DNA from: Trueperaceae bacterium
GTDB lineage: Bacteria > Deinococcota > Deinococci > Deinococcales > Trueperaceae
Reading direction: 5' to 3'
Length of the DNA stretch: 48,606 nucleotides
Assembly (NCBI GenBank): GCA_036381035.1
Contig: DASVDQ010000108.1
Location: 1 to 48,606 of the forward strand
Part shown: positions 40,219-44,227 of the stretch, one piece after another
How the letters are laid out: every line of letters begins with the position of its first letter
Position numbering within the stretch: the stretch's first letter is position 1
The notes under the pieces: model-generated
What the model was told of the DNA's origin: nothing
Database searches by the model: none
Seen by the model: only the letters and a program-made list of their open reading frames with translations
Made by a program: the position numbers and the translations under genes

Positions 40219-40400
40219 GTCGCAAGTGGGTCTGTCTCTGGCTCCGGTGTGGACCGGCCGGGAGTTGCTGGTCCATGCCTTCTCCCAGCCATAGGATCTT
40301 ATTGCGTCGAATTTGTTAGAGCGAGTTATGATGCCCTCAACAAGCGAGCAATAAGCCGCCCCTTGCTGACCGGTGCCCTAGTTCACCGACGGTTCATCTG

Positions 40401-40436
40401 ATGAAAATTCGTCTTCTGCTTCGTCGACTCAAATGA
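40401..40436 (+). CDS. 11-codon ORF overlapping the Fic/Doc start
   Basis: ATG at 40401 encodes MKIRLLLRRLK and its TGA overlaps the ATG of the Fic/Doc gene (ATGA). No good ribosome binding site precedes either start. It could be a leader for coupled translation. It may equally be chance; expression is unproven. Confidence 0.25.
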   Translation: MKIRLLLRRLK

Positions 40437-41686
40437 ACAAGAAGAAACGTCGAGTTGATTTATTGGCGCGCCAAGCTGGCCGCGAATTGGACGACGCGCT
40501 CTTACTCTTGTGGGACGCTGGCTTGGATCACGTTTTGAGTCCGGGCTACGTACTAAAGGGCTCAGAACTTGAACGCGCAAGGAGGGCACTGGGCCTTACT
40601 GCCCGGCGTGATCTCGCCTCGCTAAGGTATTGGAGCGCCCGCTTGGGCGTAGGAATCGATGACCTCCAAGACCTCCTTGCCGCAGAGGGTCTTGGTAGAC
40701 CTCCAAAGGACGGCAGGCTAAGAAAGCAGCAAATCAACTGGCTGTCCAGCTACCCTTCGCGCGAGCGAGCTGCAGGTTCCACCCATATAGATGCTTTTTC
40801 CGAAGCTGACCGGTCCTCAACCTCACGCGGCGAAGTATCAACAAAGGAGACTGACGAGGCTTTTGTCTGGACCACCATCGGTCGTGAGACCTCACTGCGA
40901 TACCTAGACGTCAACGAGGTTGAAGCAATCCATGAGGAGCTAGTTCGTGACTTCGCTTCGGATTCTGACCCGATTCAGCCAGCCGGGGTTCGAGATCGGG
41001 GCCTGCTGGAAGGGGCGGTCCATCGTCCCCACACTGCGTTGGGCGAAAAGCTGAAATACCCCACAGTTGAAATGGCCGGCGCGGCACTGCTTTGTAGTCT
41101 AGTACATGACCATCCTTTTCACAATGGAAACAAGCGAACAGCTTTAGTATCGCTTCTAGTCTTTCTTGATGAGAATGGCCTCTTGTTGGAGTGCGAAGAT
41201 GACGCCATTTTCCAGTTAGTGCTGCGCCTTGCTCGCCACGGTGTTGTGGACAAAAAGGAGAATAGCCTTGCCGACCGCGAGGTTCTCTATGTTGCGAAAT
41301 GGTTGAAGGACCGTACTCGCTGGATTGAGAGGGGTGACCGCCCAATCCCGTGGAGAAGGCTGCGCCAAATAATCACATCGTTTGGCTGCCAGTTTGAGTC
41401 AACCGGTAATGGTCCAGGGCGATATCGTATAGAACGAACCATTAGGCTGCAGAGTCGTTTTCTAGGACGGAATATCCCGCGTACCCGCAAGCTGACGTCG
41501 GTGATTCAGGTCGTTGATGACGGGCGCGATTTGCCCGCAAAAACGATTAAGAAGGTGCGAAGTGAGCTGGAGCTCGATGAAGAGCACGGAGTCGATAGCC
41601 AGTTGTTCTATGTAAGGGGCGGGCTCACGGTGAGCGCCTTTATCGCCCGATATAGGAAGCTGCTGAAGAGGCTTGCGCGGCTGTAG
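40433..41686 (+). CDS. multi-domain Fic/Doc protein with IF2N-like and HicA-like flanks
   Basis: 417 residues. Residues 5-90 are helical and resemble the N-terminal helical modules of translation factor IF-2 (VDLLARQAGRELDDALLLL then LVGIDDLQDLLAAEGL-like). Residues about 157-270 are a Fic/Doc domain, with GAALLCSLVHDHPF and motif H227-PFHNGN-K234-R235, where the usual Asp/Glu is Asn231. Residues about 303-395 look like a HicA-type RNA-binding fold (WRRLRQIITSFGCQF, GRYRIER, DGRDLPAKTIKKVRSELEL). No antitoxin gene is adjacent. It is most likely a toxin or defence-type protein modifying a translation component; this is inference. The ATG overlaps a short upstream ORF. Confidence 0.75.
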   Translation: MNKKKRRVDLLARQAGRELDDALLLLWDAGLDHVLSPGYVLKGSELERARRALGLTARRDLASLRYWSARLGVGIDDLQDLLAAEGLGRPPKDGRLRKQQINWLSSYPSRERAAGSTHIDAFSEADRSSTSRGEVSTKETDEAFVWTTIGRETSLRYLDVNEVEAIHEELVRDFASDSDPIQPAGVRDRGLLEGAVHRPHTALGEKLKYPTVEMAGAALLCSLVHDHPFHNGNKRTALVSLLVFLDENGLLLECEDDAIFQLVLRLARHGVVDKKENSLADREVLYVAKWLKDRTRWIERGDRPIPWRRLRQIITSFGCQFESTGNGPGRYRIERTIRLQSRFLGRNIPRTRKLTSVIQVVDDGRDLPAKTIKKVRSELELDEEHGVDSQLFYVRGGLTVSAFIARYRKLLKRLARL

Positions 41687-41862
41687 CTCACGGTTGTTCA
41701 GGTCCCAGAACGCTTGATGTTGCGGCCAGGGCGAAACTACCGCATCTATCAGTTCGGCTTTGAACCCGCTTTGCTCCTCTTTCTAGGATGCGCCTCTTCC
41801 GGCGTTTCACGGCTCGCACAGATGGGATTCGGAGGCACTTGTAACGCCCAATATTGTCGTCC

Positions 41863-43015: not shown

Positions 43016-44227
43016 GTGTTGTCACGCCTCGGACCCACAGTCGTCAGCGTCGCAGACCTGAGGCGCCTGGCGCGTCGCCGGCTGCCGCGGATGGTGTTCG
43101 ACTACATCGACGGCGGCGCCGAGGACGAGCGGACCCTGCGCGCCAACGAGGCCGCCTTCTCCGAGCTGACGTGGCGGCCGCGCTCGGCGGTCGTGCACCC
43201 GCAGGTCGACATGAGGACCACGGTCCTCGGCCACGAGCTCTCCATGCCCGTGATCCTCGCGCCCGTCGGCTCGAGCCGGCTGTTCTGGCCGCGCGGCGAG
43301 GCCGAAGCCGCCGCGGCCGCGGGCGAGGCCGGGACCGTCTACACGCTCTCGACGCTGTCCGGCACGCGTCTCGAGGAGGTACGCGCGGCCAGTAGCGGTC
43401 CCTGTTGGTACCAGCTCTACCTCTGCGGCGGGCGCGACGTGGGCCTCGCCGCCGTGCGGCGCGCCAAGGCCGCCGGCTACTCGGCGCTGGTCGTGACCAT
43501 CGACACGCCGGTGGCGGGCATGCGCGAGCGCGACGTGCGCAACGGCACGAGCCAGCTCATCGCCAGGCGCTTCCCCGACCTCGTGCCCTTCCTGCCGCAG
43601 CTGCTGACCAGGCCGGGCTGGCTCTACGACTTCTGGCGCGACGGCGCCCCCCTGAGCTTCCCGAACATCGTGCTGCCCGAGGGCCCCATGCCGTACGCCG
43701 ACATCGGGGCCCAGCTCGCCGCAGCCGCGGTGTCGTGGGGCGACCTCGCGTGGATCGCTGAGGCCTGGGGCGGGCCGATCGTCGTCAAGGGCGTGCACAC
43801 CGCCGACGACGCCAGGCGCGCCGTGGACGCCGGCGCCAGCGCGGTGGTCGTGTCGAACCACGGGGGCAGGCAGCTCGACGGCGTGGCGCCCACGCTGCAC
43901 GTCCTGCCCGAGGTGGTCGCGGCCGTGGGCGACAGGGTGGAGGTCCTGCTCGACGGCGGCGTGCGGCGCGGCGGCGACGTGGCCAAGGCGCTGGCGCTGG
44001 GCGCGCGGGCCGTCCTCGTCGGCCGGGCGTACGCCTACGGCCTGGGCGCGGCCGGTCGCGCCGGCGTGGCCAAGGCGCTCGAGATCCTGCGCAGCGAGCT
44101 CGAGCGCACGCTGCGGCTGCTCGGGTGCCCCTCGGTGGCCGAGCTGGACGCGAGCTACCTCGGCGAGCCGGAGCTCTGGCCGGTCGCCTCGTCGCCCACG
44201 ACGCAACGGAAGGCCGCGGCCCGCTAG
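43016..44227 (+). CDS. FMN-dependent alpha-hydroxy-acid dehydrogenase
   Basis: 403-residue TIM-barrel flavoenzyme of the L-lactate dehydrogenase/glycolate oxidase group. PVILAPVGSSRLFWPRGE forms the FMN pocket, YTLSTLS and WYQLYL follow, and the catalytic His with substrate-binding Arg is in VVVSNHGGRQLDG (near residue 280). The phosphate-binding DGGVRRGGDVAKALALGA and VGRAYAYGL complete the site. It would oxidise L-lactate or a related 2-hydroxy acid to the keto acid. The start could be the GTG at 43016 or the TTG next to it. Substrate specificity is not decided by these motifs. Confidence 0.93.
   Translation: MLSRLGPTVVSVADLRRLARRRLPRMVFDYIDGGAEDERTLRANEAAFSELTWRPRSAVVHPQVDMRTTVLGHELSMPVILAPVGSSRLFWPRGEAEAAAAAGEAGTVYTLSTLSGTRLEEVRAASSGPCWYQLYLCGGRDVGLAAVRRAKAAGYSALVVTIDTPVAGMRERDVRNGTSQLIARRFPDLVPFLPQLLTRPGWLYDFWRDGAPLSFPNIVLPEGPMPYADIGAQLAAAAVSWGDLAWIAEAWGGPIVVKGVHTADDARRAVDAGASAVVVSNHGGRQLDGVAPTLHVLPEVVAAVGDRVEVLLDGGVRRGGDVAKALALGARAVLVGRAYAYGLGAAGRAGVAKALEILRSELERTLRLLGCPSVAELDASYLGEPELWPVASSPTTQRKAAAR

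Follow-up and report, generated by a model that had tools for sequence, protein, structure and literature searches.

A 48,606-nucleotide stretch of Trueperaceae DNA (the window) encodes a three-part Doc-type protein of 417 aa (40433..41686; the gene and all its parts lie on the + strand), in which a Doc/Fic core is preceded by two modules that appear IF2-N-like and followed by a HicA-like domain and a conserved C-terminal helix. We put at roughly 55% the probability that this protein is a Doc-type kinase that stands alone, regulates itself and serves as a one-gene switch for shutting off translation, most likely in abortive infection or as a backup defence. A one-gene defence switch is probable because the same layout recurs without an antitoxin in at least 43 other bacteria, often beside DNA-restriction genes. 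A role as a translation-targeting toxin or defence protein, proposed from the letters of the window before any search was run, remains the leading idea. No description of this architecture was found in a literature search that had most subscription journals outside its reach, and none of the PADLOC and PHROG models spans the full protein; PADLOC PDC-S23 and others match the Fic region alone.

Catalytic core and flanking domains

The Doc/Fic catalytic domain (40895..41323, residues 155-297) was delimited by VIA-align against P1 Doc (3k33; Z 15.5, rmsd 1.8, 122 residues, 25% identity). The window protein matched Pfam Fic/DOC (E=5.9e-13), the NCBIfam death-on-curing model TIGR01550 (E=1.1e-11, above its curated cut-off) and the DOC_P1 family. 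Together with the motif HPFHNGNKR at residues 227-235 (41111..41137), these matches bear out the Fic/Doc core that the sequence-only reading had named. Within the motif, H227, F229, N231, G232, N233, K234 and R235 are invariant across 80 sequences; position 238 is Leu in 76/80, and there is no counterpart of the second Arg found in AMPylating Fic proteins. The Doc consensus HxFx(D/N)(A/G)NKR is a predicted kinase mark, and Doc owes its kinase activity to the motif Lys, acting through an inverted ATP (PMC4177925). The closest solved structure by sequence is E. faecalis Doc (9vzc, E=1.7e-9), whose aligned motif is HCFYNANKR and whose activity on EF-Tu, that of a kinase, has been measured (PMC13034048). 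Asn231 had earlier been taken as unusual and as a sign of altered chemistry. It is ordinary, since HPFHNGNKR fits the Doc consensus and a Doc with HCFYNANKR acts on EF-Tu; altered chemistry at this residue is thereby ruled out. Related Doc enzymes stop protein synthesis through phosphorylation of EF-Tu. Judged by its Doc motif and fold, and with the target carried over from P1 and E. faecalis Doc, the core would phosphorylate EF-Tu.

The AlphaFold2 model, built from the 80-sequence alignment, reached a pLDDT of 91.6 and a pTM of 0.80. Foldseek with the whole model returned mainly Doc/Fic structures, with HicA and IF2 domains absent from the top rows, and the assignments of the HicA-like and IF2-like domains come from VIA-align, not Foldseek.

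At the N-terminus, the evidence for two tandem IF2-N-like modules is weak but consistent. Module 1 (40439..40603, residues 3-57; VIA-align and hhalign) aligned with T. thermophilus IF2 (4b3x) at Z 6.6 and rmsd 2.2 over 52 residues with 27% identity; its identity to the IF2 N-domain is 26-27% overall. Residues 1-117 were also folded separately and compared with the PDB by VIA-align, and module 2 (40604..40783, residues 58-117), delimited in this way, aligned with IF2 4b43 at Z 6.9 and rmsd 2.3 over 58 residues. In that comparison the IF2 N-domain was the top match of both halves (residues 3-60, Z 6.6), and winged-helix DNA-binding proteins ranked lower, at Z 6.0 and below. These IF2-N Z values are modest and, being below 8, not decisive, and module 2 additionally resembles DNA-binding winged helices. 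By hhalign against the IF2 N-terminus, module 1 reached a probability of 84% and module 2 of 76%, with mismatched controls at 1-2%; Pfam IF2_N had no match listed in the window protein at E up to 10. The IF2N-like N-terminus claimed earlier is supported at this strength, apparently in two copies, which are invisible to Pfam. The likeness is to the N-terminal domain of IF2, the window protein differing in the presence of two copies, in their lying below Pfam detection and in the lack of a GTPase. When the N-terminal part alone was used as query, no other protein in 198 nearby genomes carried it. A low-confidence linker (40784..40882, residues 118-150; pLDDT block means of 57-79 at 111-140) follows module 2. 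The order of the host also includes Thermus-like genomes: L128, a member of it, encodes an IF2 that hardly differs from the T. thermophilus protein.

Behind the core lies a HicA-like domain of the dsRBD type (41333..41617, residues 301-395; VIA-align). It aligned with the Thermus HicA-like protein 1whz (residues 301-395, Z 9.2, rmsd 1.9, 69/70 residues) and with E. coli HicA 6hpb (residues 306-382, Z 8.5, rmsd 1.4, 57/57 residues), sharing with HicA mRNA interferases the alpha-beta-beta-beta-alpha fold over the whole domain. The relation rests on fold, since profile similarity is weak (20% by hhalign of the C-terminal domain against HicA); Pfam showed no HicA likeness in the C-terminal part of the window protein. 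Unlike HicA, the family is fused to Doc, has no HicB and lacks the catalytic His: the GSH motif of HicA is replaced by GPG, GNR, GNK, GEK and similar triplets in all full-length relatives, and no His stands at the HicA catalytic position in the window protein or in 43 relatives. No HicB partner was found as a conserved neighbour of the full-length loci. The HicA resemblance noticed earlier holds for the fold but does not suggest RNA cleavage, the catalytic His being gone family-wide. A second active RNase was rejected on this ground, and the domain is probably a binding module rather than an RNase, as the loss of the catalytic His in all relatives suggests. A Tex_N match at residues 371-409 (E 0.0017-0.021, under the cut-off) was taken as chance.

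Probable control within a single chain

Doc is familiar as the toxin encoded by one gene of a two-gene module. The window protein shares the Doc fold and the HxFx(D/N)(A/G)NKR motif with the Doc proteins of Phd-Doc pairs (P1, E. faecalis); it differs in being about three times longer, in carrying two IF2-N-like modules and a HicA-like domain, and in having no Phd. In the window, neither side of the gene offers an ORF that could plausibly be an antitoxin, and among its relatives 43 full-length and 37 short loci have no small ORF in common beside the gene. A hidden antitoxin ORF was rejected on these grounds, in agreement with the earlier claim that no partner antitoxin is present. Internal control, which that claim had led to, is probable: conservation of the extra domains and the C-terminal helix from phylum to phylum suggests that control is built in. 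The same conservation argues against an orphan toxin held in check in trans, by RNA or by an unlinked antitoxin, and maintained for addiction or stress rather than for defence. We consider such a toxin unlikely, even though a Doc protein ordinarily serves as the toxin of a Phd-Doc pair (PMC4177925), solo toxin genes are common (PMC2701414), and short relatives of the protein are found on inoviruses, on plasmids and beside ordinary Doc gene pairs.

A candidate for such control is a conserved C-terminal helix, a putative inhibitory segment (41630..41683, residues 400-417) delimited by the ranges of alignment to class III Fic structures. In class III Fic proteins the inhibitory helix is located at the C-terminus. 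Class III structures (5cgl, 2g03, 2f6s, 8idv, 6ep5 and others) aligned out to residues 412-417 in VIA-align, and the alignments of structures lacking that helix, NmFic delta8 (3se5) and class I proteins such as VbhT, ended at residues 297-300. Since only class III structures reach residues 412-417, the aligned ranges suggest that helix 400-417 occupies the class III inhibitory position. It is among the best-conserved segments of the family, with the pattern F-I-x-x-Y...L-x-R-L-A (L414 in 79/79 and A415 in 71/79). The canonical (S/T)xxxE(G/N) motif is absent, and the helix consensus has no Glu. With this classical Glu missing as well as the second Arg, any inhibition would differ in detail from that of AMPylating Fic proteins (PMC3667792). 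The window protein may thus resemble class III Fic proteins such as NmFic and EfFic in having a same-chain C-terminal helix apparently at the inhibitory place, but its motif is the NKR of Doc where theirs is GNGRxxR, (S/T)xxxE(G/N) is missing, and a whole HicA-like domain separates core and helix.

Distribution and mobility

A single-sequence query against genome contigs gave no match, and it was a 4-sequence alignment that revealed the family. With this 4-protein alignment as query, a profile scan of 84,980 species genomes yielded 154 loci, of which the best 80 were kept; the resulting sample (43 full-length and 37 short) consists of the top-scoring matches and is not a random draw. At least 43 other full-length relatives have the same domain order, with 33-46% identity to the window protein, variable neighbours and no conserved antitoxin. 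Their loci fall in eight phyla: Actinomycetota, Planctomycetota, Gemmatimonadota, Acidobacteriota, Chloroflexota, Omnitrophota, Rhodothermota and Pseudomonadota. No further full-length copy was found in 198 nearby genomes. In a tree built from the region that all have in common, three changes suffice to explain the three-part and short labels, and the window protein clusters, in a weakly supported placement, with planctomycete and Omnitrophota copies, a grouping that makes lateral transfer likely. Nearly all full-length genes (42/43) are AT-richer than their own flanks.

The window copy follows this pattern. As the sequence-only reading had noted, it lies on a low-GC patch of about 1.6 kb (40219..41862, delimited by GC composition), of which it is the sole occupant. 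The GC content of the patch is near 0.55, that of the surrounding part of the contig 0.70-0.81; the non-coding flanks inside the patch are also at 0.55, and outside it the GC exceeds 0.71. The gene itself has a GC of 0.55 against 0.72-0.78 in its neighbours and a GC3 of 0.57 against 0.96-0.98 in four neighbours. The patch is a probable foreign insertion, with no convincing flanking repeats as insertion marks around it. By Pfam, the neighbouring genes in the window code for a protein of the DJ-1/PfpI type and for one that is LPG-synthase-like. A clean empty site could not be demonstrated through homologues of the neighbouring DJ-1 gene, because in the relatives these stand without LPG-synthase or YcaQ-like neighbours. 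Further along the window, ARAGORN called a 99-nt tRNA-Glu at 43978-44076, within an FMN-dehydrogenase gene, which is probably false since Rfam shows no tRNA at that place. In four actinobacterial loci (L059, L060, L067, L069) the gene adjoins nrdF, suggesting a shared insertion hotspot.

This distribution bears on whether the protein could instead be a kinase that modifies a translation factor in a regulatory or housekeeping capacity, without toxicity. The IF2-like modules could position it at ribosomes, but the patchy distribution, with no further full-length copy in 198 nearby genomes, the low GC and the variable neighbours make such a role very improbable.

Short relatives without the N-terminal part occur mostly in Proteobacteria, filamentous phages (inoviruses) and plasmids. 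Several (Doc plus HicA-like; L002:3998-4732, L004:6610-7348, L027, L028, L037) are carried by Salmonella and Vibrio filamentous phages and other viral contigs, and the Vibrio filamentous-phage copy looks frameshifted. At three prophage-like loci (L031:3811-5228, L036:3625-5143, L109:3794-5215) three genes stand in tandem: a small ORF resembling an antitoxin, a gene for a plain Doc (HPFFNANKR) and one for Doc joined to a HicA-like domain; L089 has the same genes in a different order. Beside one full-length gene, 16 bp away on the opposite strand, lies a second, different Fic protein (HPLVDGNKR; L044:5226-5600).

Restriction genes and a proposed role in defence

Restriction-modification genes lie within 4 kb of 13 of the 43 full-length loci. 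The end of hsdR, identified by Pfam or PADLOC, is 44-91 bp upstream of the gene in L047, L050, L053 and L081, the hsdR of L050 being a contig-end fragment with weak support, and in L047, L053 and L081 the gene order is hsdM-hsdS-hsdR-doc. Other loci have type ISP genes (L045, L072), hsdM (L058, L069), hsdS with Mrr (L077), or C5 or N4/N6 methylases (L049, L056, L068), and one copy has a DISARM DrmC-like protein on one side and a type III Res on the other (L054:2681-8432). At L076 the gene has a helicase of the Schlafen type and an HNH nuclease for neighbours. To control for genome-wide frequency, all N6_Mtase genes of the same 43 genomes were located (71 matches in 184 Mb). Chance would place 0.20 of them within 6 kb of the gene, whereas 6 were counted (P=8e-8), and including L077 by coordinates raises the tally to 7. 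With nine shared queries, a restriction-like gene was detected at 11/43 three-part and 2/37 short loci, a comparison that favours the three-part set because the queries were derived from three-part loci; it nevertheless speaks further against the orphan toxin discussed above. No restriction or defence gene adjoins the window copy, and no type I hsd locus surrounds it, so the restriction link cannot be general.

The type I loci recall the PrrC anticodon nuclease, which is silenced by its linked type I enzyme and activated by Stp, an anti-restriction peptide of the phage (PMC2610378). By that precedent, the Doc-type protein would be a second line of defence that disables translation, lies latent under a restriction-modification enzyme and is released when a phage blocks restriction. 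The hsdM-hsdS-hsdR-doc order and the hsdR end directly upstream in L050 speak for such coupling. However, no restriction gene was seen within 4 kb of 30/43 relatives or of the window copy, and the neighbours are of many kinds, a defence-island pattern rather than a single fixed partner, and we regard such a tie to restriction systems as unlikely. PrrC and the Doc-type family share a presumed translation-disabling action and, in some genomes, a place with type I restriction genes; PrrC is an unrelated enzyme that cuts tRNA-Lys, and the restriction linkage of the Doc-type family is occasional. Another point of comparison is the anti-phage protein Sofic, in which, as presumed for the window protein, one chain combines a Fic domain with regulation by a C-terminal domain in the service of defence; Sofic, however, is an AMPylase with a downstream small antitoxin, AS1 (PMC12249575), and the relation was considered at the Fic domain.

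The self-regulated switch that we favour may work as follows. The Doc core would phosphorylate EF-Tu and so arrest protein synthesis. At rest, the C-terminal helix would pack on the Fic core and keep the kinase off, taking the place of a separate Phd antitoxin. The HicA-like domain without its catalytic His, which sits between core and helix, and the IF2-N-like parts probably sense a signal such as RNA, ribosomes or another nucleic acid. We hypothesize that engagement of these sensors pulls the helix away, and that the released kinase then arrests translation as an abortive defence, which would protect against phage. A broader generalization is possible and we put it forward tentatively: a widespread, so far undescribed single-gene defence family built on a helix-locked Doc EF-Tu kinase, unlocked by an RNA-binding domain derived from HicA and by IF2-N modules directed to ribosomes, that forms the fourth gene of several type I restriction operons, as a PrrC-like alarm.

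If the switch operates in this way, the antitoxin of the two-gene modules would here be replaced by built-in domains, and this cross-phylum family would exemplify a toxin turned into a self-contained sensor-effector. It would also connect the phosphorylation of EF-Tu with defence linked to restriction, and it would be a case of an inactive HicA fold put to new use in sensing.
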